A model generated the notes under the pieces. It searched no databases. It was given only the letters and a program-made list of their open reading frames with translations, and was not told the DNA's origin. The position numbers and the translations under genes are program-made. This document shows positions 8,609-48,519 of a stretch of 48,539 nt of DNA, one piece after another (the stretch's first letter is position 1; each line of letters starts with the position of its first letter). The stretch comes from Acidobacteriota bacterium (GTDB lineage Bacteria; Acidobacteriota; Vicinamibacteria; Vicinamibacterales; UBA2999), in NCBI GenBank assembly GCA_021730945.1, contig JAKFYH010000057.1, positions 1 to 48,539 on the forward strand. The letters run 5' to 3'.

Positions 8609-9778
8609 GTGAAGAAGTTGCGCGTGGGTGTCATTTACGGCGGCCGATCCGGGGAGCACGAAGTCTCGGTGACCTCGGCGGCCTCGATCTTCAAGTCGAT
8701 TGACCGGACCCGCTACGAACCGGTGCCCATTCGCATTGAGAAGGACGGCCGGTGGACGCTGGCGGATCGGCCGCCCACGGCGTTGTCGGCGGCCGAGGTG
8801 ATTCAGCAGGCCCGTCAGTCAGCCGCCCGGCCGGTGCGGGCGGGCCGCGACTCGTTGTTTGTCCCCTACCCGTCCGGCGACACGCTGATCACGGTCGAAC
8901 GCCGCGGCTCGTCCGATGGCAGCACGCCGGCCGATGTCGACCGCGCGGTGGTGACAGGGCTCGGACTCGACGTGGTGTTCCCGGTGCTGCACGGACCATA
9001 CGGCGAAGACGGCACCGTCCAGGGGCTGATGGAACTGGCCAACGTGCCGTACGTGGGCCCTGGCGTGCTGGCGTCGGCGGCTGGCATGGACAAGGCGGTG
9101 ATGAAGGTGCTCTTTGCCGCCGCCGGGTTGCCAATCGTCGCCTCGCACGCGTTCGTGCGCGCGGACTGGACGCGCGATCGCGCTGGCGTGCTGTCGGCCC
9201 TGGCGGCGCTCGGACTTCCGCTATTTGTGAAGCCCGCCAATCTCGGATCGAGCGTCGGTATCTCGAAAGTCAAGGCCAACGCCGAATTGGTGCCGGCAAT
9301 CGAGACCGCCCTGGAGTTCGATCGCAAGGTGATTGTCGAGGCCGGCGTCGCCAACGCGCGTGAGGTGGAGTGCGCGGTGCTCGGCAACGACGACCCCGAA
9401 ACGTCGGTCCCCGGCGAGATCGTGCCGTCGCGGGAGTTCTATGACTACGAAGCCAAGTACCTGGACGAGGGATCCAAGAGCCTGATTCCGGCCGAGCTGC
9501 CGGCGGCGACCGTGGCTGAAGTTCAGCGACTGAGCGTGGCGGCGTTTCGCGCCATCGATGCGGCCGGCCTGGCCCGCGTCGACTTCCTGCTGGCGCGCGA
9601 CACTGGCAACCTCTACGTCAACGAGATCAACACCATGCCCGGCTTCACCAGCATCAGCATGTTCGCCAAGATGTGGGAGGCCAGTGGCGTCAGCTACCCG
9701 GCGCTGGTCGACCGGCTGATTCAACTGGCCCTGGCCCGGCACGGCGAGAAGCAACGGCTGCGAACCAGCGCGCTATGA
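8609..9778 (+). CDS. ddl: D-alanine--D-alanine ligase
   Basis: Ddl makes the D-Ala-D-Ala dipeptide for peptidoglycan. The 389-residue ATP-grasp protein shows the N-terminal VIYGGRSGEHEVS, the LHGPYGEDGTVQG segment, the NLGSSVGISK loop, EFYDYEAKY, and the metal-binding C-terminal YVNEINTMPGFT. It starts with GTG, has no Shine-Dalgarno, and has TATTAT (8597-8602) 6 nt upstream, so a leaderless message is plausible. It is divergent from tgt and overlaps the next gene by 4 nt. Confidence 0.96.
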   Translation: MKKLRVGVIYGGRSGEHEVSVTSAASIFKSIDRTRYEPVPIRIEKDGRWTLADRPPTALSAAEVIQQARQSAARPVRAGRDSLFVPYPSGDTLITVERRGSSDGSTPADVDRAVVTGLGLDVVFPVLHGPYGEDGTVQGLMELANVPYVGPGVLASAAGMDKAVMKVLFAAAGLPIVASHAFVRADWTRDRAGVLSALAALGLPLFVKPANLGSSVGISKVKANAELVPAIETALEFDRKVIVEAGVANAREVECAVLGNDDPETSVPGEIVPSREFYDYEAKYLDEGSKSLIPAELPAATVAEVQRLSVAAFRAIDAAGLARVDFLLARDTGNLYVNEINTMPGFTSISMFAKMWEASGVSYPALVDRLIQLALARHGEKQRLRTSAL

Positions 9779-10872
9779 CGAGGGCGCACCTGTCCTGGTG
9801 CCTAGGGTGCTTGTGGTGCCTATGGTGCCTAGGGGTGGGTGCGGGTGCCGGTGCCGAGGGACGGGGGCTCAGGGCCGACCAGGCGCGGCGCGGCATCACG
9901 GCCGCGCCCCTCGTAGCGAGTGCCTACGACCTCATTCTTGACGCACAGTTTGACCGCGTGCGGGCAGTACTGCCGGCCACTTGCGGCCCGCCTTCGATCC
10001 AGGGCCTCGACGCGACAAGTCTGGCGCCGCCGGTCGCCTGCCTGGGCCTTGAAGCCCTGAACCTGTGGTGGCAGATCCAACTGGATCCCACAAACCGCGC
10101 CCTTGATCCCGCCTTCGTCGCCAAGGTCGGCGCGGCCATCGCCGAGGCCGGGCGCATGACGGTGGCCGAACCCGAGCGTGCCGAAGCGTGGTTCTACCTC
10201 GGCGCCGCCTACGGGGTGCGTGCCCAGTGGCGGGTCCTGCGCGGCGAACGCCTGGCGGCCGCGCGCGACGGCAAGCGCATCAAGGAATCGCTCGAACGGG
10301 CACTGGCGCTCGACCCGGCGATGCACGATGCCGAGTTCGGGGTCGGCCTCTACCGCTACTACGCCGATGTCGCGCCGGCTGCCCTGCGCTTCCTGCGGTG
10401 GCTGTTGCTCCTGCCGGGCGGCAATCGCGTCGAGGGGCTGGCGCAACTGGAACGCGCTGCCAGCCTGGGCCAACTGGTGCGCGGCGAGGCCCAGTTCCAG
10501 ATTCACCAGGTCTACCTCTGGTACGAGCATCGCGATCGCGAGGCGCTCGCCATCATCCAGGCGCTGCAGCAGCGCTACCCGCATAACCCGGTGTTCCACC
10601 ACGTCGAAGCGGAGATCCTGGACACTTACCTGCACGACGCCGAAGCGAGCCTCCGTGCATCAGAGCGGCTGCTGGCCCTGGCGCGCGCCGGCGCGGTGAG
10701 CCAGCCGGAACTGGCCGAGACGATCGCCCGCCTGAACATGGCGCGTCAGCTCGGCGCGCTCAAGCAGAACGCCGCCGCGATCGCGCAACTCGATCTGATC
10801 ATCGCGTCGCAGGCGGCCCGGCCGGCCGGCGCGCTCGCGCAGGCCGAGCGCCTGCGGCGCCAACTGCGCTAG
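9775..10872 (+). CDS. Secreted TPR-like protein of unknown function
   Basis: The ATG overlaps the ddl stop codon (ATGA), giving 365 residues. A signal peptide (about residues 1-27) is followed by a helical region with tetratricopeptide-like features: AEAWFYLGAAYGVRAQW, LERALALDPAMHDAEFGVGL and an alternating AIAQLDLII segment. TPR proteins usually scaffold other proteins; no enzymatic motif is seen. The signal-peptide core, W-C-L-G-C-L-W-C-L-W-C-L-G, is encoded by a nonamer array (9796-9840), so this part of the protein looks repeat-derived. Coupling to ddl may reflect only shared transcription. Confidence 0.75.
   Translation: MTRAHLSWCLGCLWCLWCLGVGAGAGAEGRGLRADQARRGITAAPLVASAYDLILDAQFDRVRAVLPATCGPPSIQGLDATSLAPPVACLGLEALNLWWQIQLDPTNRALDPAFVAKVGAAIAEAGRMTVAEPERAEAWFYLGAAYGVRAQWRVLRGERLAAARDGKRIKESLERALALDPAMHDAEFGVGLYRYYADVAPAALRFLRWLLLLPGGNRVEGLAQLERAASLGQLVRGEAQFQIHQVYLWYEHRDREALAIIQALQQRYPHNPVFHHVEAEILDTYLHDAEASLRASERLLALARAGAVSQPELAETIARLNMARQLGALKQNAAAIAQLDLIIASQAARPAGALAQAERLRRQLR
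9796..9840 (+). repeat. Nonamer array encoding a signal-peptide core (family B)
   Basis: Four or five consecutive 9-nt units of the type TGGTGCCTA: TGGTGCCTA, GGGTGCTTG, TGGTGCCTA, TGGTGCCTA, then a degenerate GGGGTGGGT. The array is in frame with the TPR protein gene and each unit adds W/G-C-L. Related GGTGCT arrays encode the signal peptides at 24230 and 47890. Confidence 0.75.
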
Positions 10873-11460: not shown

Positions 11461-11514
11461 GGGCTTCGCCCGAGATCAGGGCTTCGCCCGAGATCAGGGC
11501 TTCGCCCGAGATCA
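11461..11514 (+). repeat. Three perfect 18-bp tandem repeats
   Basis: GGGCTTCGCCCGAGATCA is repeated three times without change (11461-11478, 11479-11496, 11497-11514). Each unit contains the small palindrome GGGC-TTC-GCCC. The array lies between the terminator and the 3' end of the convergent HEAT-cyclophilin gene. Confidence 0.9.
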
Positions 11515-11537
11515 GGAGGCGGGGAGATCAGGAGATT

Positions 11538-16344: not shown

Positions 16345-17600
16345 TGGGCGCGCTCGAACGGCTGTTCGCGCTCGAACAGTTCGGCATCAAGCTGGGGCTC
16401 GACAACATCGGCGCCATCATGGCGGCGCTCGACCATCCGGAACGGGCGTGGCGCTCGGTCCATATCGCCGGCACCAACGGCAAGGGATCGGTCGCCGCGA
16501 TGGTCGAACGGGGCCTGCGGGCGGCCGGGCTCAAGACCGGCCGCTACACCTCGCCACACCTCGACAGCATTGAAGAACGGGTGGCGATCAACGGCGAGCC
16601 GGTCGACCGCGAGACCTTCGTCGCCGCCACGGGCGTGGTGTTCGAGGCAGTGGATCGCGCCACCACGGCGGGCACGCTGACGGTCGTGCCGACCTTCTTC
16701 GAGGTGTCCACCGCGGTAGCTTTCGAGATTTTCCGCCAGGCGCGGGTGGACGTCGCGGTGGTCGAGGTCGGCCTGGGCGGGCGCTTTGACGCCACCAACG
16801 TGCTGGCGCCGGAGATTACCGCGATCACGTCGATCGCGCTCGACCACGAACGCCATCTTGGCAGCACGCTGTCGGCGATTGCCTTCGAAAAGGCCGGCAT
16901 CGCCAAGGCCGGCACGCCGCTTGTGATTGGCCGGCTGCCTGGAGAGGCGGCGCGCCGGATCGTCACGGTGGCGGCCGCGGCCGGCGCGCCGGTGATCGAC
17001 GCGCACGCGACGACCAATGATCGGGTCTACCCGCCGCTGAAACTGGCGTTGCCAGGGCGCCATCAACTGGAGAATGCCGCCGTGGCGATCGCGATACTCG
17101 AGGCGTGGTCGGCCCGCGTGTCGCTGGTGCCGACGAGCGCGGTGATCACCGGCTTGACCGAATGCCGGTGGCCGGGGCGCCTCGAGTGGCTGCGCCTGCC
17201 GGACGGCGGGGAGCTGCTGATTGATGCGGCGCACAACCCGGCCGGGGCCGCGGCGCTCTCCACGTATCTCCAGGACACCAGCCTGGCGCCGATCCCGATC
17301 GTGCTGGCGGTGATGGAGGACAAGGACCTGGCGGCCATGGTGGCGCCCCTGGCCGCGGTCGCCGCGTCGTGGGTCGCGACCACCGTGCCGCACACGCGCG
17401 CCCGGCCGGCCGACACCCTGGCCGAGGCATTGAGGGCGCTGACACCGGCGGTCGACGTTCGGGCAGCAGCGGATCCGGAAACAGCCGTCGCGCTGGCGCT
17501 GTCGGGTTCAAAGCGGGCGGTCGCCGCCGGATCGATCTACCTGATCGGCCCGCTCCGCTCGCGCCTGCTCGCAAGCGGCGCCTCGATTATGAATCTGTAA
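16344..17600 (+). CDS. folC: Folylpolyglutamate synthase / dihydrofolate synthase
   Basis: FolC adds glutamates to folates and often also makes dihydrofolate from dihydropteroate. The 418-residue Mur-ligase-like protein shows the P-loop AGTNGKGSVAAM (about 41-52), the TSPHL segment, GLGGRFDATN, the DHERHLGSTL/FEKAGI region and the C-terminal domain signature LLIDAAHNPAGA. Translation is coupled to accD through TGATG. A hexamer repeat starts in its last codons. Confidence 0.96.
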   Translation: MGALERLFALEQFGIKLGLDNIGAIMAALDHPERAWRSVHIAGTNGKGSVAAMVERGLRAAGLKTGRYTSPHLDSIEERVAINGEPVDRETFVAATGVVFEAVDRATTAGTLTVVPTFFEVSTAVAFEIFRQARVDVAVVEVGLGGRFDATNVLAPEITAITSIALDHERHLGSTLSAIAFEKAGIAKAGTPLVIGRLPGEAARRIVTVAAAAGAPVIDAHATTNDRVYPPLKLALPGRHQLENAAVAIAILEAWSARVSLVPTSAVITGLTECRWPGRLEWLRLPDGGELLIDAAHNPAGAAALSTYLQDTSLAPIPIVLAVMEDKDLAAMVAPLAAVAASWVATTVPHTRARPADTLAEALRALTPAVDVRAAADPETAVALALSGSKRAVAAGSIYLIGPLRSRLLASGASIMNL

Positions 17601-17680
17601 CTGCAACTGCAACTGCAACTGAAACTGCAACTGAAACTGCAACTGAAACTACCAACTTTCAACTTTCAACTTTCAACTTT
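17595..17680 (+). repeat. Hexamer and heptamer tandem repeats between folC and lptD
   Basis: Nine hexamers of the type CTGCAA/CTGAAA (17595-17648; the first, CTGTAA, contains the folC stop) are followed by four perfect CAACTTT heptamers (17653-17680). The block is clearly A-richer than its surroundings and lies just upstream of the putative lptD promoter. Confidence 0.9.
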
Positions 17681-17712
17681 CAGCTCCCCGTTCTGATATT
17701 CTCGCTCTATCC

Positions 17713-20010
17713 GTGCGGTATCGCCTTTCCATCGTCCTGGCGTGCGCAGTCATGAGCCTCGTCGCGCGGCCGGCCGCGGCCCAGATTGTGCCCGGCTGGA
17801 ACACCAAGCAGTTCGCGCTCGAACGCATTGATGCCGACCGCGTCCGCCTGATGCGCGAAGTGGAGATCGAGGGCGAGACCGGCAGCGCCAATGCGGGGCA
17901 GAAGTTCTTCGCCGACGATCTCGAAATGAATCTGAAGACGGGCGAGCTCACTGCCCGCGGCAATGTGGTCTTCCAGACGCCGACCGCGCGGATTGCCGCC
18001 GAGACCGTGGTGTTCAACACCAAGACCAGGCTCGGCACCTTCACCAGCGCCACGGGCATTGCGCAACTAGGCGAGCGCGGGAAGCAGAACCAGAGCATGT
18101 TCGGGACGCTCGAACCCGACGTGTATTTCTACGGCGCGGAGATCGAGAAGATTGCCGCCGACAAGTACCGGATCAACAAGGGCGGCTTCACGACCTGTGT
18201 GCAGCCGACGCCCCGTTGGGAGATCGTCAGCGGCCGCGCCACGGTCAACCTGAACGACTACGTGGTGATGCGTAACGCGGTGGTGCGGGTCAAGAACGTG
18301 CCGGTGTTCTACCTGCCGATTCTCTACTACCCCATCCAGGAGGACGACCGCGCCACCGGCTTCCTGTTGCCGACTTACGGCGTTTCGACCTACGCCGGCT
18401 CGTCGATCAGCAACGGCTTCTTCTGGGCGGTCAACCGCAGCCAGGACCTGACGTTGTTTCACGACTGGTTCTTCACCGGCAGCACCGGCGTGGGCAGCGA
18501 GTATCGCTACCTGTTTGGACCGGCCTCGCAGGGAAATTTCCGGGCTTATTGGCTGAACGAGACCGAGTCGTTGATCAATGGCAGCCTGCGGCCGGCCCGC
18601 AAGAGCCAGATCTTCACCGGCGGGTTGAACCAGGGCCTGCCGGCCGGCCTGACCGCGCGAGCCAACGTCAACTATTCCACCGACGTCACCACTCAGCAGT
18701 TGAACAGCAACGACTTCCTGGCCGCGACCACCAGCCAGCGCACGCTGAATGGCGCGGTCTCCGGCGCGTGGGGCGGGCTCAGCCTGAATGCCGCCTACGA
18801 CCGCATGGAGTATTTCTACAACGCGACTGACTCGCAGGTGACCGGACGCGGGCCCGGGTTCACGGTTTCCTATAGCGGCCGCAAGCTGCCGGCGGTTCCG
18901 GCCTACCTGTCCCTTAACGTCGACGCGGCCAACATGCTGTACATCGGCCACTCGGTCGACAAGACCAGCGGCGTCAAGACCACGGTGGACAAGAGCTTGA
19001 ATCAGGTGGACGTGCTGCCGTCGCTGCGCGTGCCGCTCAGCACGCTGCCGTTTCTCACGGTCAACGCCACGGTGGCCTACCGCACCACCTATTTCAGCGA
19101 GAGCCTGGCCGCCGACCAGCGCACGCAACTGGACGAGGCGGTGACGCGCTCCTACGCCGACCTGCGGGCGGACCTGGTGGGTCCGGTGTTCTCGCGCGTC
19201 TTCTCCCCGAACAACGCGTTTGCCGAGCGCATGAAGCACGTGATCGAGCCCACGTTCTCGGTCCAGCGGCGGACCACGATCGAGAACCAGGAGCGGGTGC
19301 CCAACGTGCAGGGCCGCTACGACACGGTGATCGGCGGCACGACCCAGTTGTCCTATGGACTGGCCAACCGCCTGCTGGTGCGCAAGCGGGCGGCGGAGGG
19401 CGCCCAGGCCGGCGCGCCGCAGGAACTGCTGAACGTCTCGGTCCGCCAAAGCTATTACTCGGACGAGCGGGCCAGCCAGTACGACCCTGCCTACGGCTAC
19501 AGCCAGGGCCGGCCGGCCAGTCCGTTCTCGCCGATCTCGCTGTCGGCTCGCGCCATTCCCACCCGGCCGATGGCGGTTGACTTCCGGCTCGAGTACGACC
19601 CGCGCACGGAGGCTACCTACAAGGTGATCGGCTACGGCCTGAACGGCGTGTTCCGGACCAACATGGTGGAAACCTCTGCCGGCTGGAGCAAGCAGAACTA
19701 CGGCGCCTCGTCGGCCGGCCGATCGAACAACTACCTGCAGCAGAGCACCCAGTTGCGCTTCGGCGGCGGCCGTTATGGCGGCACGGTCTCGCTCAACTAC
19801 GACATCGCGCGGTCGACCCTGCTTAACCACCGCTACATTGCCTTCTACAACGCCCAGTGCTGCGGGATCTCCTTTGAGTACCTGGCGTACAACTACGGCT
19901 CCGGCACGAACCTGCTGATCGCCCAGAACCGGCGGTTCAACATGTCGTTTACGCTGGCCGGGGTCGGGTCGTTTTCCAACTTCTTCGGGGCGTTCGGTGG
20001 CGGGTCGTAA
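17713..20010 (+). CDS. lptD: LPS-assembly protein LptD
   Basis: LptD is the outer-membrane barrel that inserts lipopolysaccharide. The 765-residue protein has a signal peptide (to about AAAQ24), an OstA-like beta-jellyroll (MREVEIEGET ... FQTPTARIAAETVVFNTKT, about 48-115), then the barrel with PVFYLPILYYPIQEDDRATGF. Cys residues typical of the family's disulfides are present: the C in FTTCVQP and the paired CC near the C-terminus (NAQCCGISF). Its presence shows an LPS-bearing diderm. It starts with GTG, lacks a Shine-Dalgarno, and has TATTCT (17697-17702) 10 nt upstream. Confidence 0.95.
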   Translation: MRYRLSIVLACAVMSLVARPAAAQIVPGWNTKQFALERIDADRVRLMREVEIEGETGSANAGQKFFADDLEMNLKTGELTARGNVVFQTPTARIAAETVVFNTKTRLGTFTSATGIAQLGERGKQNQSMFGTLEPDVYFYGAEIEKIAADKYRINKGGFTTCVQPTPRWEIVSGRATVNLNDYVVMRNAVVRVKNVPVFYLPILYYPIQEDDRATGFLLPTYGVSTYAGSSISNGFFWAVNRSQDLTLFHDWFFTGSTGVGSEYRYLFGPASQGNFRAYWLNETESLINGSLRPARKSQIFTGGLNQGLPAGLTARANVNYSTDVTTQQLNSNDFLAATTSQRTLNGAVSGAWGGLSLNAAYDRMEYFYNATDSQVTGRGPGFTVSYSGRKLPAVPAYLSLNVDAANMLYIGHSVDKTSGVKTTVDKSLNQVDVLPSLRVPLSTLPFLTVNATVAYRTTYFSESLAADQRTQLDEAVTRSYADLRADLVGPVFSRVFSPNNAFAERMKHVIEPTFSVQRRTTIENQERVPNVQGRYDTVIGGTTQLSYGLANRLLVRKRAAEGAQAGAPQELLNVSVRQSYYSDERASQYDPAYGYSQGRPASPFSPISLSARAIPTRPMAVDFRLEYDPRTEATYKVIGYGLNGVFRTNMVETSAGWSKQNYGASSAGRSNNYLQQSTQLRFGGGRYGGTVSLNYDIARSTLLNHRYIAFYNAQCCGISFEYLAYNYGSGTNLLIAQNRRFNMSFTLAGVGSFSNFFGAFGGGS

Positions 20011-24219: not shown

Positions 24220-24804
24220 GTGATGCAAAGGTGCTTGGGTGCTGGAGTGCTGAGGTGCTGGGGTGCTTGTGCATTCGTGCTGCTGATGAGCGTCGCCGCG
24301 CAGGCGCAGGTCCCGCAGCCATTTCCGCGTCCTAACACGCCATCGACCCAGAAACCCCCGGCACCGGCACCCGAGGCACCGGCACCCACCCCGGCACCCC
24401 AGGCACCCTTGGCACCAGCACCGTCAGGTGCGGCGAGCGAAGCGAGCGGTGCCCCAAGCGAAGCCATGTTGGGCGCACCGCTCTATCCGTCGGCGGTCTA
24501 CCTGACCTCGTACGACGCCGGCCGTGGCCAGCGCTTCTACCTGTTCGGGGTCACTGTGCCGTATGCCGATCTGGTGGGGTACTACAAGACGGTGCTGAAG
24601 ACCAAGGGCGATGAACTGTTCGAGGCGCCGCCCACACACCAGTTCGAGATCGCGCGTTACCGCGACGAGTCGATGGCGTTTGCGCCGAGCGTCACGATCA
24701 AGGACTACACCTACGGAGGGGCAGCCGGCTTCCCTAATCCAAGGCCAGGGGCAGAGCCGGCACGCTTCCCGACCGTGATTCAGATCGTGCCGGCACCTCG
24801 CTGA
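24220..24804 (+). CDS. Secreted hypothetical protein with repeat-derived N-terminus
   Basis: A 194-residue protein of unknown function. A signal peptide (MQRCLGAGVLRCWGACAFVL, ending near AQAQ) is followed by a Pro/Ala linker (about 40-75) and a compact domain of about 110 residues containing LYPSAVYLTSYDAGRGQR, VGYYKTVLKTKGDE and HQFEIARYRDESMAFAP. I recognise no named family. The signal peptide is encoded by a GGTGCT octamer array and the linker by inverted GGCACC repeats, so only the C-terminal domain looks ancestral. GTG 24220 fits a leaderless start; ATG 24223 is equally possible. Confidence 0.75.
   Translation: MMQRCLGAGVLRCWGACAFVLLMSVAAQAQVPQPFPRPNTPSTQKPPAPAPEAPAPTPAPQAPLAPAPSGAASEASGAPSEAMLGAPLYPSAVYLTSYDAGRGQRFYLFGVTVPYADLVGYYKTVLKTKGDELFEAPPTHQFEIARYRDESMAFAPSVTIKDYTYGGAAGFPNPRPGAEPARFPTVIQIVPAPR
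24230..24269 (+). repeat. Octamer array encoding a signal peptide (family B)
   Basis: Five consecutive octamers of the type GGTGCTTG/GGTGCTGG (24230-24237 onward, ending 24269). The array lies in codons 3-17 of the secreted protein. At about 24363-24420 the same gene carries the inverted form (GGCACC every 6-9 nt) encoding its Pro/Ala linker. Confidence 0.8.
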
Positions 24805-26650: not shown

Positions 26651-26832
26651 CAGGGCCGCAGATTACGCGGATGGCGCAGACCAGCGGGCCGGCGGCGGCG
26701 AAGCCGCCGCAGACGAGGCCGGAGGCCGGTCCGAGTCGCGCGCGACGCGCGCGGCGCCGGCCCTCGTGCACTATCTGCGTCATCTGTGTCATCTGTGGCT
26801 CTGAAATCCAGTCTGTGGCTCTGAAATCCAGG
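26651..26832. repeat. Composite repeat block between thiC and the kinase gene
   Basis: An inverted pair of family A copies (26651-26680 in the CAGATT orientation; 26773-26810 in the ATCTGTG orientation) encloses about 90 bp of very GC-rich palindromic sequence, including GCGGCGGC-GAA-GCCGCCGC and runs of GCGCGC. The right copy consists of the nonamers ATCTGCGTC, ATCTGTGTC and ATCTGTGGC. A 20-bp direct repeat follows at 26793-26812 and 26813-26832. No gene is visible in it. Confidence 0.75.
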
Positions 26833-29911: not shown

Positions 29912-29947
29912 AAAATCTGCGTAATCTGTGTCATCTGCGGCCCTGAT
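29912..29947. repeat. Family A repeat between convergent genes
   Basis: Nonamers ATCTGCGTA (29915-29923), ATCTGTGTC (29924-29932) and ATCTGCGGC (29933-29941), then CCTGAT. It fills almost the whole 44-bp spacer between the convergent kinase and M1 peptidase genes and touches the M1 stop codon. Confidence 0.8.
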
Positions 29948-31641
29948 TACTTGACGGGCCTTCCATCGGCGTCGAGGATGGCGACGTTGACGTAGAACCG
30001 GTCGGTCGCGACCTTGAACGCGTCCTTGCCCGCGCCCCACGCCATCGACTTCCAGTCGGTCGTTGGCTGAATCATCTGCCACTTCGCCGGATCGCCAGCC
30101 TTGATCGACATCGCGAACCCGCGCTCGTCGGCGTTCCAGCGGTATGACACGCGCTTTGCGGCATCGTCAAACGTCAGCTCGAGCGCCGGCAGGTTCGCGC
30201 GACGCAGGTACTGATCGAAAATCGGCGTCAGGTCCTGCTTCAACTCGGCGTTGAAGAAGCGGACGATGTCCTCGGTCATGATGTTCTGGTACTTGAAGCG
30301 TTCGAACGTGCCCTGGATCAGCTTCCACCACCGGGCATCGTCGTTGACGGCGTTGCGCAGGGTGTCAAGGAACAGCGCGCCCTTGAAGTACATGTCCTGG
30401 TTTGGCGTGCGATGGATGCCGCGCTGGGTGATGATCGGCTCCTTGTTGCCGACTTTGGATTTGTAGCCCCCGGCATACTTGATGGCATCCTCGCGCCCGA
30501 ATAGCGCCTCGACGTAGATGAATTCGAGGTAATTACACCAGCCCTCCTGGATCCACATGTCCGAGACGTCGGCGGCGGAGATCGCGTTGCCGAACCACTC
30601 GTGGCCGCTCTCGTGGATGATGATGAAGTCGAACTTGAGGCTGACGCCAACGCCGGTCCAGTCGCGTTCGAGGTAGCCGTTCGCATAGCGATTGCCGTAG
30701 GTGACGGCGCTCTGGTGTTCCATGCCCGAGTACGGCACCTCGATCAGCTTGAAGCCGTCTTTCGGGAACGGGTACTTGCCGACGTACTTCTCGAAGGCCT
30801 CCATCATCGGCTTGGCCTGGGCGAACTGGACCTTGGCCTTCTCCAGGTTCCCCGGCAACACGAAGTAGTCCATGGTCAGATCGCCGAAGGTTTCGGAGAA
30901 ATGCGCGTACTCCGCGATGTTGAGCGAGACGTTGTAGGAGTTGATCGGGTAGTGGACCCGGTAATCCCAGCGCGTGTAGCCGTCGCCGAGGTCGGTTTTG
31001 CCCATGAAGCGGCCGTTCGAGACGTTGGTCAGGCCGTTGGGAACGGCAACACGTATGTCAGCACCCTCGGGCTCGTCGCGCCACTGGTCCTTACTCGGCC
31101 ACCACGACGCCGAGCCCTCGCCTTCGTTCGCGGTGTTGATCCAGTGCTTGCCGGTAGGATCGGTCCGGAAGGCCAGGGCGCCAAACCGTCCTTCTTCCCG
31201 CGGCGAGCCGGAGTAGTGAAACTCGATTGAATAGGTTCGGCCTGCCCGCAGGGTTGCTGGAAAGTCGACATAGACGGTGTTGTGATCGCGCTCGTACTTC
31301 AGCGCCTTTGCCTCCATCTCGATCTTCTCGATGGTGTAGTTCGCGAACAGCTCCAACTGGATGCGGGTGTCGTCCTTCAGCATCTTGAAGCGGATGGTGT
31401 TCTTGCCCGAGATGAACTTCTTCTCGGGATCGACCCTGATGTCCAGGTCGTAGTGCAGCAGGTCGTTGTTGGCGCGATAGCGGCCGTACTCGCCACGCAG
31501 AATGTCGGTGCGCGTCGGCGCCCTCAACGTTGATGGCGGCTCGCGCCGCGGCGCCGCAGATTGCGCCAACACAGATCCAGGGCCACAGATGACACAGATG
31601 ACGCAGAGCAAACTTCTCAAGGTGCTAAGGCGCGGGGTCAT
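29947..31641 (-). CDS. M1 family metallopeptidase (aminopeptidase), secreted
   Basis: The 564-residue protein has the gluzincin zinc site HESGH with the third ligand Glu in WIQEGWCNYLE 18-19 residues later (about 350-380), preceded by a GMEHQSAVTYGN segment that corresponds to the GxMEN exopeptidase motif. It probably trims amino acids from the N-terminus of imported or environmental peptides in the periplasm. The signal peptide (residues 1-27) has the core L-C-V-I-C-V-I-C-G-P-G, encoded by a family A repeat copy. It starts with ATG only 20 bp from the divergent hrpB start; TATGAT (31655-31650) lies 8 nt upstream. Confidence 0.92.
   Translation of the reverse strand: MTPRLSTLRSLLCVICVICGPGSVLAQSAAPRREPPSTLRAPTRTDILRGEYGRYRANNDLLHYDLDIRVDPEKKFISGKNTIRFKMLKDDTRIQLELFANYTIEKIEMEAKALKYERDHNTVYVDFPATLRAGRTYSIEFHYSGSPREEGRFGALAFRTDPTGKHWINTANEGEGSASWWPSKDQWRDEPEGADIRVAVPNGLTNVSNGRFMGKTDLGDGYTRWDYRVHYPINSYNVSLNIAEYAHFSETFGDLTMDYFVLPGNLEKAKVQFAQAKPMMEAFEKYVGKYPFPKDGFKLIEVPYSGMEHQSAVTYGNRYANGYLERDWTGVGVSLKFDFIIIHESGHEWFGNAISAADVSDMWIQEGWCNYLEFIYVEALFGREDAIKYAGGYKSKVGNKEPIITQRGIHRTPNQDMYFKGALFLDTLRNAVNDDARWWKLIQGTFERFKYQNIMTEDIVRFFNAELKQDLTPIFDQYLRRANLPALELTFDDAAKRVSYRWNADERGFAMSIKAGDPAKWQMIQPTTDWKSMAWGAGKDAFKVATDRFYVNVAILDADGRPVK
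31574..31608 (-). repeat. Family A repeat encoding the M1 signal-peptide core
   Basis: On the minus strand the units TCTGCGTC, ATCTGTGTC, ATCTGTGGC and CCTGGATC cover residues 12-23 of the M1 peptidase. The same units occur in noncoding DNA at 26773-26810 and 29915-29947. Confidence 0.8.
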
Positions 31642-46135: not shown

Positions 46136-47953
46136 CTAGCGCGGCCGGCGTTTCAGGTACACCTCGCGCCTGGCGAGTACCTGCTCAGCCAGTGCGGCGG
46201 GCATTGGCAGCTTGATTGCGCGATCGAGCGTCTCCACGGCCAGGTCGAACGATCCAACCGCGGCATACACCTCGGCCAGCCCGAAGAGCGCCTGCGGATT
46301 GGCGGCATCGAGGAGCACCGCTTCCTGCAGTTGCTTGAGCGCCTCGCCCGTCTTCCCCTGTGCGAGCAACACCTGTCCCAGATTATTCAGCGCCAGCGCA
46401 TAGGCAGGCCGGCGCGACAGGGCGGCGCGAAACGCGGCCACGGCCTCGTCGAGGCGGCCCGCCTGCGCCAGCGCGGTGCCCAGGTTGAAATGCGCGGCAG
46501 GCGATTCCGGTCTGAGCGCCACCGAGGCCTCGAAGTGCCGCACCGCCGGCGCCAACTGCCCGACCCCCATATACAACAGCGCGACATCGTCGTGCAGTTC
46601 GGCATCGGTCGGATCGACCCGCAACATGGTTTCGTAGCCGGCAATGTCTTCCACTGACATCTTGGTGGCGATCTGATCGCTCATCAGTTGCCGGTCACGG
46701 TCGTTGGTCGCCAGCAGCTGGAACCACAGGTCGCCCATTTCGTCGTGTGAGCGCTGTCCCCAATAGACGCGCGCGGGCGGCAACTGCGGGTTGCGGACGT
46801 TCGCGGCGGAGTTGTCGTAGGTGTACTCCATGGTCAACCGCGTCCCCTTCGGCAGGCGAATCGGCGTGACCTGGCGATACACGTGCTGCCAGCGAAAGTC
46901 CCAGTCGGTGATCTGCATCACCACGCGCGACGAGCCGTCGGGAAACTCCGCGCTGCCGCGAATCTCGCGCGCGCGGTAGTGCGCATGGGGCTGCACGGCC
47001 AGGAGGTCAGCATCCACCGGCAAGGTGTAGTCGTCGCGAATCACGTAGCGCGGCTCTCCGGGCGGGATCTCGATCGACTGCGAGCCAAGGCGCAGGATGG
47101 TCGGCGTGCGGGTCGGCGGGCGGTCGCTGAAGAACAGCCCAATCTCGGGGAGCACTTGTTCGACGGCGCCGCTCGGCTGCAGGTGCAACTGCACGACCAG
47201 GTCGCTGCCGGGCTCGAGCGTCCACGCCAGGTCGGACGGCACCAGCGGGGCCACCTGGCCCGGTGTCCAGCCCAGGAAATGGCCGTCGGGATACTCCGCC
47301 GATCGCGGCATCAGGCCGTCGTAGCCCGGCAGGGGATCGGCGTCATCGAGCAGCCGGGTGGCCGGCGTGCGATCGATCCGGATGTTGGCGTGATGCACGA
47401 CCCGCGCGTTGCCGGGATGAAACTCGATGCCGCGCACATAGGTTCGCTTCGTCACCGGCAGCCGGATGGCAAAGATGCGGAAGGCGTCGGACGGTTGGGC
47501 CTGGAGCGTGAACGGCTGCGACGGTTTGACAACCAGGTCCGGCCGGCCGAGCAGCCACCCGCTGGGCAGGTTCGGCAGCGGCGGCTGCGCGGCCGCGTCG
47601 CCTTGCGGCGTGCCGCTGCTGGCCCATTCGTCGATCAGCGCAATCTGCCGGTCACTCAGCGGATCCTGGCCGACGAAGTGGCCGACGCCGGGCTCGACCT
47701 TCCACGGCGGCATGAAGCGGCTGCGAGTGACGATGGCAATCTGGGTGGCGCGGCGGCGAACCTCATCGTAGGTCGTCAGGCTGAACGGCGCCGGCCCACC
47801 GCTCCGGTGACACGACACGCACGACGTGAAGACGATGGGCGCGATGTCGCGGGCAAACGTCACCTCCTGCGCACCGGCCGGCGTGCACATGAGCACCGCA
47901 GCACCAAAGCACGCCAGCACTTCAGCACCCCAGCACCTCAGCACCTTCTTCAT
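46136..47953 (-). CDS. Cytochrome c / copper type II monooxygenase-like / TPR fusion protein
   Basis: The 605-residue secreted protein has three parts. After the signal peptide, a haem site CVSCH (45-49) lies in a small cytochrome domain. The middle (about 150-420) resembles the PHM/dopamine beta-monooxygenase fold and keeps all six copper ligands: His-His in VVHHANI (about 186-187), His in VVQLHLQ (about 254), H-A-H in QPHAHYRA (about 320-322) and Met in DEMGDLW (about 402). The C-terminal 160 residues are TPRs (AHFNLGTALAQAGRLDEAVA). The haem could deliver electrons to copper. The ATG overlaps the redoxin stop codon, so the two are co-translated. Seven GGTGCT octamers encode the signal peptide. 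Confidence 0.88.
   Translation of the reverse strand: MKKVLRCWGAEVLACFGAAVLMCTPAGAQEVTFARDIAPIVFTSCVSCHRSGGPAPFSLTTYDEVRRRATQIAIVTRSRFMPPWKVEPGVGHFVGQDPLSDRQIALIDEWASSGTPQGDAAAQPPLPNLPSGWLLGRPDLVVKPSQPFTLQAQPSDAFRIFAIRLPVTKRTYVRGIEFHPGNARVVHHANIRIDRTPATRLLDDADPLPGYDGLMPRSAEYPDGHFLGWTPGQVAPLVPSDLAWTLEPGSDLVVQLHLQPSGAVEQVLPEIGLFFSDRPPTRTPTILRLGSQSIEIPPGEPRYVIRDDYTLPVDADLLAVQPHAHYRAREIRGSAEFPDGSSRVVMQITDWDFRWQHVYRQVTPIRLPKGTRLTMEYTYDNSAANVRNPQLPPARVYWGQRSHDEMGDLWFQLLATNDRDRQLMSDQIATKMSVEDIAGYETMLRVDPTDAELHDDVALLYMGVGQLAPAVRHFEASVALRPESPAAHFNLGTALAQAGRLDEAVAAFRAALSRRPAYALALNNLGQVLLAQGKTGEALKQLQEAVLLDAANPQALFGLAEVYAAVGSFDLAVETLDRAIKLPMPAALAEQVLARREVYLKRRPR
47890..47945 (-). repeat. Octamer array encoding a signal peptide (family B)
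   Basis: Seven consecutive octamers on the minus strand: GGTGCTGA, GGTGCTGG, GGTGCTGA, AGTGCTGG, CGTGCTTT, GGTGCTGC, GGTGCTCA. They encode residues 3-21 of the copper monooxygenase-like protein. The product shares V-L-R-C-W-G-A with the repeat-encoded signal peptide at 24230. Confidence 0.85.
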
Positions 47954-48519
47954 TTCACCAGGTCCGCGAGGATGCATCCGATCGCCTGGGTTTCGCTGAC
48001 GGCGATCGGCCGGCCGTGCGCGACCGCGTCGAGCGCGCGTTCGAGCGTACGCTCGGTTGGCTGCGGGCGGTCGACACCAAAAGCAACGTAGCGATCGTCG
48101 ATGCGGCCACGATAGAGGACGCGGCCGGCGGCGCCGATCACGGCCACTTCCGGCGTCACGCGCACCCCAGTGTGCTTGACCAGTTCCTGGGCGGTATCCC
48201 GCACGGCGGGCAGGGCGTAGCCGAACTTGTGCAGATGCTCGCGAATAGCGGCCGGTGTGTCACTGCCCACCGGATAGACGAGCGTGAACCCAATGCCTTG
48301 TTTTGCGAACTTCGCCGCCAGCGACTGGATATCTGGCGCGTATCGGTTGGAGATGGGGCAATCGGGGGTTGTGAAGACGAGGACGGAGGCGATGCTTCCC
48401 GCCGGGAGCACCAGCGGATCGACGACTTTGCCGTCGAGATTGACCACGCGCACCTGACCTGCGTCGGCCGAGGCAACCGTCAGCAACAGGGCTGTGAAGA
48501 ACAGGAGCTTGCGGCCCAT
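47950..48519 (-). CDS. Redoxin (AhpC/TSA-like thiol protein), secreted
   Basis: A 189-residue protein with a signal peptide (to about residue 21) and a peroxiredoxin/thioredoxin-like fold containing TTPDCPISNRYAPDI (single active-site Cys followed by Pro), TPEVAVIGAAGRVLYRGRIDD and a C-terminal Cys in AIGCIL that may form a disulfide or bind a cofactor. Relatives are often fused to the cytochrome/copper monooxygenase module; here the genes are separate but overlap by 4 nt. TATACT lies 6 nt before the ATG. Confidence 0.88.
   Translation of the reverse strand: MGRKLLFFTALLLTVASADAGQVRVVNLDGKVVDPLVLPAGSIASVLVFTTPDCPISNRYAPDIQSLAAKFAKQGIGFTLVYPVGSDTPAAIREHLHKFGYALPAVRDTAQELVKHTGVRVTPEVAVIGAAGRVLYRGRIDDRYVAFGVDRPQPTERTLERALDAVAHGRPIAVSETQAIGCILADLVK

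Follow-up and report, generated by a model that had tools for sequence, protein, structure and literature searches.

Why should the signal peptide of a bacterial protein be written in tandemly repeated DNA? The question is raised by one gene in a 48,539-nucleotide stretch of an Acidobacteriota genome (contig JAKFYH010000057.1 of assembly GCA_021730945.1; "the window" in what follows is the whole of this stretch). Seven GGTGCTNN octamers at 47890-47945, on the minus strand, make up the predicted signal peptide core of the protein encoded at 46136-47953 on the same strand: codons 4-21 lie entirely within octamers, and the peptide reads MKKVLRCWGAEVLACFGAAVLMCTPAGA, followed by QEV. The stop codon of a redoxin-like gene (47950-48519, minus strand) overlaps the start of this gene. 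The protein has a CxxCH motif, noted by eye, and TPR repeats according to Pfam; an earlier note on this DNA had called it "copper monooxygenase-like", a name that finds no backing, there being no copper monooxygenase domain at a Pfam threshold of E<=0.001.

The same note had listed four genes of the window with octamer or nonamer cores, and the three other arrays, with TRF scores between 41 and 55, are indeed there. A GGTGCCTNN-type nonamer array (9796-9831, plus strand, TRF score 51) forms the predicted core in the gene at 9775-10872 (plus strand), supposed to be a TPR protein and without any Pfam family at E<=0.001, so that this name, too, stays unconfirmed. A GGTGCTNN octamer array (24230-24267, plus strand, score 55) does the same in a hypothetical protein gene at 24220-24804 (plus strand, starting at GTG 24220 or ATG 24223; hereafter the 24 kb gene), where a GGTGCC-type array in reverse orientation (24356-24416, minus strand) encodes a Pro/Ala linker directly after the signal peptide. 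An ATCTGYGTC nonamer array (31584-31607, minus strand, score 41) lies in the predicted signal peptide (LLCVICVICG) of an M1-family peptidase gene (29947-31641, minus strand, assigned by Pfam). The nonamer of the peptidase is also, as had been pointed out, that of two noncoding arrays located by the repeat finder, one at 26773-26797 and one at 29914-29939, the latter flanked by convergent genes (both intergenic, plus strand). It is likewise correct that V-L-R-C-W-G-A is common to the unrelated proteins of 46136-47953 and the 24 kb gene, and that its residues derive from the repeat.

(Other repeats of the window can be noted in passing. A perfect 20-bp tandem duplication, TCTGTGGCTCTGAAATCCAG, at 26792-26831 extends one of the intergenic nonamer arrays, and a related stretch running in the opposite direction lies near 26655-26690. 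CTGCAA/CTGAAA and CAACTTT tandem arrays at 17595-17682 stand immediately 5' of a gene starting at 17713 or 17752; CAACTTT, or AAAGTTG, is a further dispersed short repeat of this genome. A perfect tandem repeat of an 18-nt unit, GGGCTTCGCCCGAGATCA, occupies 11461-11516 in 3.1 copies. A search of Rfam at gathering scores finds nothing in the window.)

The octamer and nonamer arrays are dispersed repeats, not products of chance. In the genome (4.73 Mb) there are 65 matches to three consecutive octamers and 296 to two consecutive nonamers; the reversed controls match in neither case. Three-octamer matches occur in nine of the 396 genomes of the phylum that were sampled: 65 in this genome, nine in G017, six in G007 and one to six in each of six others; in G148, which belongs to these six, the reversed control has more matches than the octamers do. 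G007 is one of the five other members of the genus sampled, and nonamers are present in 15 of 43 genomes of the family. Most sites lie between genes. In this genome that holds for 23 of 33 octamer sites, for 15 of 22 GGTGCC-type sites and, among the matches listed on contigs C1-C10, for 32 of 39 nonamer sites; in G006, another species of the genus, where the stretches were chosen among the matches listed (100 of 103), 47 nonamer sites divide into 31 intergenic, eight coding and eight flagged as signal peptides. (These lists leave out one nonamer site, C7:92686, and five GGTGCC-type sites, C9:21, C28:51431, C29:40030, C42:5677 and C51:18535. Four loci from records titled Cyanobacteria, Acidimicrobiia or Bifidobacterium breve, L166, L167, L170 and L205, are 58-74% identical to an acidobacterial gene of our own genome, and because of that identity the titles look wrong.)

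How do such repeats come to encode signal peptides? The reading that we favor, at a probability of roughly 0.6, is that lineage-specific repeats turn over in signal peptide segments because they are tolerated there, and that a filter for hydrophobicity decides which strand and frame persist; the result would have export as its predicted function. Dispersed short-period repeats peculiar to a lineage would reside chiefly between genes. Beyond a start and a cleavage site, a signal peptide should need little except a hydrophobic stretch and some positive charge, and because these requirements are so few, repeats would be much better tolerated in this segment than in the rest of coding DNA. Selection would then retain the strand and frame that yield a usable peptide: forward GGTGCTNN, GGTGCCTNN and ATCTGYGTN would supply a core of Val/Leu/Ala/Cys/Ile or of Ser/Ala/Leu/Val, and the reverse strand a Pro/Ala linker in the GGTGCC type and, in the nonamer, an ATG start together with the n-region MTQMTQ. 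As the repeat family of a lineage shifts, the array in the slot between start and mature protein would be replaced or homogenized, presumably by exchange with other arrays of the genome, and orthologous signal peptides would therefore be rewritten around a conserved mature protein.

The slot of the 46136-47953 gene illustrates the point. The overlap with the redoxin stop recurs in five orthologues of the genus, which are all of those in which both genes are readable; in the six readable genomes, our own included, this overlap and the start of the mature protein are fixed, and the intervening 50-95 nt differ widely. The slot holds octamers in our genome (G000) and pyrimidine-rich period-7 arrays in G004 and G005; G001 and G007 have a palindrome there, and G002 has no obvious repeat. 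(The comparison left out G008, where the gene meets a contig edge, G003, which has no match, and G006, where it is fused to the upstream protein.) The palindrome is itself dispersed, in eight of nine genomes of the genus. Signal peptide identity to our genome averages 24%, the level of shuffled sequence (24%), against a range of 69-82% over the first 150 residues of the mature protein. As to the G006 fusion (L076), the orthologue shares a single open frame of 1088 amino acids with the upstream protein, which by eye resembles an exported dehydrogenase, and the signal peptide slot is gone.

Two other slots tell a similar story. That of the 24 kb gene contains GGTGCTNN in G000 and G008 (in arrays of different length), GGTTCAGG in G001, GGTTCACTG in G007 and GTGTTTCN in G005 and G006; there is no array in G002 or G004, and in G003 an array is present only upstream of the start. 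The slot of the 9775 gene contains GGTGCCTNN in G000 and G002, two opposite arms of AAGGCAG in G001 and G006, two opposite arms of GGAAAAA in G005, AAGTGAG at the start in G004 and a palindromic repeat in G007, no repeat being seen in G003. In the opposite-arm cases (G001, G005 and G006) the n-region, rich in Lys/Arg, is encoded by the purine arm, and the hydrophobic core by the opposite arm. (In the G002 locus, L326, the array signal peptide is out of frame with most of the mature protein: either a frameshift or an assembly error.) The peptidase has a clear array in only one, G007, of seven relatives with a readable signal peptide. Arrays can also persist, because the signal peptide of a DUF5916-family gene keeps a nonamer-like sequence in G000, G008, G040 and G042; it is absent from G012 and G031. 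Mean signal peptide identity to our genome, with the shuffled value in brackets, is 27% (22%) for the 9775 gene, 44% (31%) for the 24 kb gene and 35% (23%) for the peptidase; two control genes keep recognizable signal peptides (45% and 54%, against shuffled values of 29% and 28%), and a third, the redoxin, for which there was one relative to compare, does no better than shuffled sequence (33% against 31%). The orthologous signal peptides are unrelated to the repeat of our genome, save that some close relatives share it, such as G008 for the 24 kb gene and G002 for the 9775 gene. Orthologues without an array thus have different residues; the outcome that the earlier note had named as damaging to its proposal, the same residues without nucleotide periodicity, is not what is found.

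One can think of these slots in a more radical way. In a concerted rewriting, array positions would be kept and the units swapped genome-wide to the current unit of the species, signal peptide and intergenic slots in step, by exchange between dispersed arrays or by a templated writer. This suggestion arises because the 24 kb and 9775 slots hold different units in different species, and also because opposite arms of one repeat furnish n-region and core in G001, G005 and G006; we regard it as tentative and rather unlikely. Just 3' of the M1 stop in G007 (L104) there is a different palindrome where our own genome has the 29914 nonamer array, so that intergenic slots, too, may swap repeats.

The reading of the slots as sites of tolerated turnover also makes a statement about where arrays are found in the genome, and that has to be counted. 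Gene calls come from a plain dicodon gene finder whose training set was our own genome, and signal peptide calls from a crude rule of our own making in place of SignalP. Such a rule can be tripped by a hydrophobic array that happens to lie near a start, so that the signal peptide count rests partly on hand curation and only the five genes compared among orthologues are largely free of this bias. Might the arrays simply be intergenic, the true starts lying downstream? The octamer contains GTG codons that resemble starts, and something of the kind seems true of four octamer sites (C1:164437, C2:158968, C3:83257 and C55:926, out of seven flagged as signal peptides), which were reassigned to "other" since a better start is found downstream of the array, and of one of the eight flagged sites of G006 (L262), which was moved likewise. 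As a general account this annotation artefact is unlikely: the start of the 46136-47953 gene overlaps the redoxin stop in the readable orthologues of the genus, array-free orthologues of that gene have a predicted signal peptide at the same place, and the 24 kb and 9775 orthologues retain a start and a hydrophobic stretch there. (Further technical notes: one plausible octamer signal peptide without a script flag, C10:64826, went uncounted; the GGTGCC-type site at 24393 was scored intergenic by the script though inside the 24 kb gene; and the starts are uncertain at the counted sites C60, with TTG, and L266 and L287, with GTG.)

Pooling the four hand-curated site lists gives 141 sites among the matches listed in our genome and G006: 15 in signal peptides, 101 intergenic and 25 elsewhere. 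Set against the sizes of these zones in a 400 kb sample plus the window (2.1%, 5.8% and 92.1% for signal peptides, intergenic and other coding DNA), array density in signal peptides exceeds that of other coding DNA 26.6-fold (P=3e-15 for the sites within coding DNA) and reaches 0.41 of the intergenic density. Removal of the window's own sites leaves 13, 100 and 25, and a 23-fold excess over other coding DNA; with ATG-start signal peptides only, the numbers are 12, 101 and 28, and the excess is 19-fold. The rule is lenient (it flags 131 of 392 genes), and the enrichment is conservative for that reason. A k-mer repeat library applied to the unbiased 400 kb sample, which has too little power for signal peptides, contains no array within one, its single signal peptide match being a chance 12-mer; that sample has 11.7 intergenic against 0.35 coding sites per 10 kb. 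The enrichment in signal peptides that the earlier note had proposed to look for exists relative to other coding DNA and turns into a deficit relative to intergenic DNA, the pattern to be expected from tolerance combined with a filter for hydrophobicity.

That note had also spoken of ready-made export signals. Part of this survives: array-built cores occur in several unrelated genes, and signal peptides are replaced between species. Do the arrays, then, amount to dedicated modules, delivered to the 5' ends of genes, or positively selected there, as good export signals? The enrichment over other coding DNA and the recurrence of the same slots across species would suit such modules, and the cores are of ordinary hydrophobicity, nine array signal peptides falling between the 32nd and 97th percentiles of 110 signal-peptide-like genes. 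Such modules are nonetheless improbable: the density in signal peptides is lower than that between genes, and intergenic arrays between tandem genes have no clear direction (octamers five in the same and three in the opposite sense, nonamers seven and ten). We infer that signal peptides tolerate rather than attract arrays, because they hold them at about 27 times the density of other coding DNA but at 0.41 times that of intergenic DNA.

A second functional idea is a phase-variable switch, in which gain or loss of an octamer would shift the frame and turn the exported protein off, nonamers altering the length of the signal peptide only. The octamer is not a multiple of three and sits between start and mature protein, and the arrays of the 24 kb gene in G000 and G008 are unequal, as a switch would have it. 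Its units, however, are not nearly identical: they vary at positions 1, 6, 7 and 8, and slippage should be slow because of this imperfection. Nonamers, which are frame-neutral, are found in signal peptides as well. A switch of this kind is very unlikely. (The imperfection has a pattern: among intergenic imperfect units, L011-L038, position 1 varies in 29 of 41 and position 6 in 14 of 41, and the GTGC core is nearly invariant, with changes in 0-3 of 41 units per position. Plain or random decay would not yield variable flanks around so stable a core.)

Is the periodicity a property of the DNA in its own right? In windows of 99 nt compared with codon-shuffled controls (p<0.01), 11 of 23 orthologue windows outside our genome are periodic, against 4 of 114 unselected signal peptides of our own genome (Fisher 2.4e-7), although the orthologue windows are not independent of phylogeny. 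Five further windows yielded no boundary in this comparison, and two met contig edges. In two of the 11 (the 24 kb gene of G003 and the 9775 gene of G004) the array precedes the start or coincides with it; within the signal peptide proper the comparison is 9 of 23 against 4 of 114 (P=1.1e-5). The five windows without a boundary, when added from separate runs (periodic for the 9775 gene of G001, G005 and G006 and not for the peptidase of G005 and G002), bring the count to 14 of 28, or 12 of 28 within the signal peptide proper. Other signal peptide genes in the fetched relative loci are periodic in 2 of 36 cases once the target rows L322, L103 and L112 are dropped (3 of 39 with them). Of 23 windows in the mature part of the genes compared among orthologues, 5 are periodic, four of these being the Pro/Ala linker, and the difference between signal peptide and mature windows is not significant (P=0.12). 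That periodic DNA is a mere by-product of periodic hydrophobic residues, as a 9-nt period (three residues) and low-complexity cores might suggest, is scarcely credible when the periodicity exceeds that of codon-shuffled versions of the same peptide codons, when periods of 8 and 7 nt are not bound to codons, and when these same DNA repeats occur also between genes and are translated in more than one frame.

Orientation fits the filter for hydrophobicity that belongs to the tolerated-turnover reading. Every one of the 12 counted arrays from which a hydrophobic core is built is read in the hydrophobic direction; the three signal peptide arrays that run the other way supply an ATG start and an n-region of MTQMTQ or MTQITQ. 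Several frames of one nonamer are used: VICVICVICG at C8:129221 and FASSVSSAALVLLSVSSVALVLSAS at C8:140762, for example; SSVSSAALV and SASSAALVIS are among the readings. The assumption that octamers run free of stops in all frames is wrong as a rule: of the 69 forward frames of the 23 octamer arrays lying between genes, 40 are free of stops, and 19 of the 23 arrays have at least one such frame. By the crude rule the counted cases have Sec-type features (a positive n-region, a hydrophobic core and small residues at -3/-1), and these peptides, each built from a repeat dispersed elsewhere in the genome, probably work in export.

Signal peptides diverge quickly, and the source of a new one is rarely visible. 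Here the DNA source can be traced across sister species: dispersed short repeats fill the signal peptide, and the requirement for a hydrophobic core accounts for the strand retained. The origin and turnover of signal peptides thereby become countable and testable. There is also a caution: signal peptides that look alike in unrelated proteins (VLRCWGA, VICVIC) can stem from a common repeat, and not from ancestry or function.

Among known systems, the short tandemly repeated repetitive (STRR) sequences of heterocystous cyanobacteria are dispersed, mostly noncoding tandem arrays of short, heptanucleotide units. Our arrays are similarly dispersed and mostly noncoding (101 of 141 sites intergenic, among the matches listed), with heptamers in relatives (AAGGCAG, GGAAAAA and AAGTGAG) and CAACTTT in the window; they differ in that the main units of our genome, those of the window's signal peptide arrays among them, have 8 and 9 nt and the host is an acidobacterium. 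We know of no description of STRR that includes use in signal peptides.

The palindromic elements of Rickettsia, which are longer and are kept in frame in various genes (Ogata et al. 2000, as outlined in PMC2229807), also place dispersed repeats in frame inside protein genes; as that outline has them, they stand apart from ours, which are mainly tandem arrays and mainly in signal peptides, yet a palindrome does form the signal peptide of the 46136-47953 orthologue in G001 and G007. Gain, loss and turnover of signal peptides in Enterobacterales (PMC5952966) and turnover in the GDF/BMP family (PMC2717928) likewise pair unrelated orthologous signal peptides with conserved mature parts, and the relevant passages of these two papers, in contrast to the present case, name no dispersed repeats as the source. 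In the open-licence PMC literature, a scope that most subscription journals fall outside, repeat-derived signal peptides appear only in the papers of Delihas, and no earlier description of slot-wise rewriting of signal peptides within one genus was found there.

It is the case described by Delihas that comes closest. The predicted signal peptide of Yersinia YPO1552 is partly a dispersed RU-2 element (Delihas 2007, PMC2759123; review PMC2229807), and related proteins of other genera have predicted signal peptides unrelated to RU-2. As in the relevant passages of those papers, a mainly intergenic dispersed repeat forms a predicted signal peptide, and the orthologous signal peptides are unrelated to it. 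RU-2 is a 168-bp element and YPO1552 the one case featured in those passages; the repeats described here are not MITE-like elements of 100-170 bp, but units of 7-9 nt in short tandem arrays, in many genes. And, unlike RU-2 as presented there, different units fill one and the same slot among the species of a single genus.
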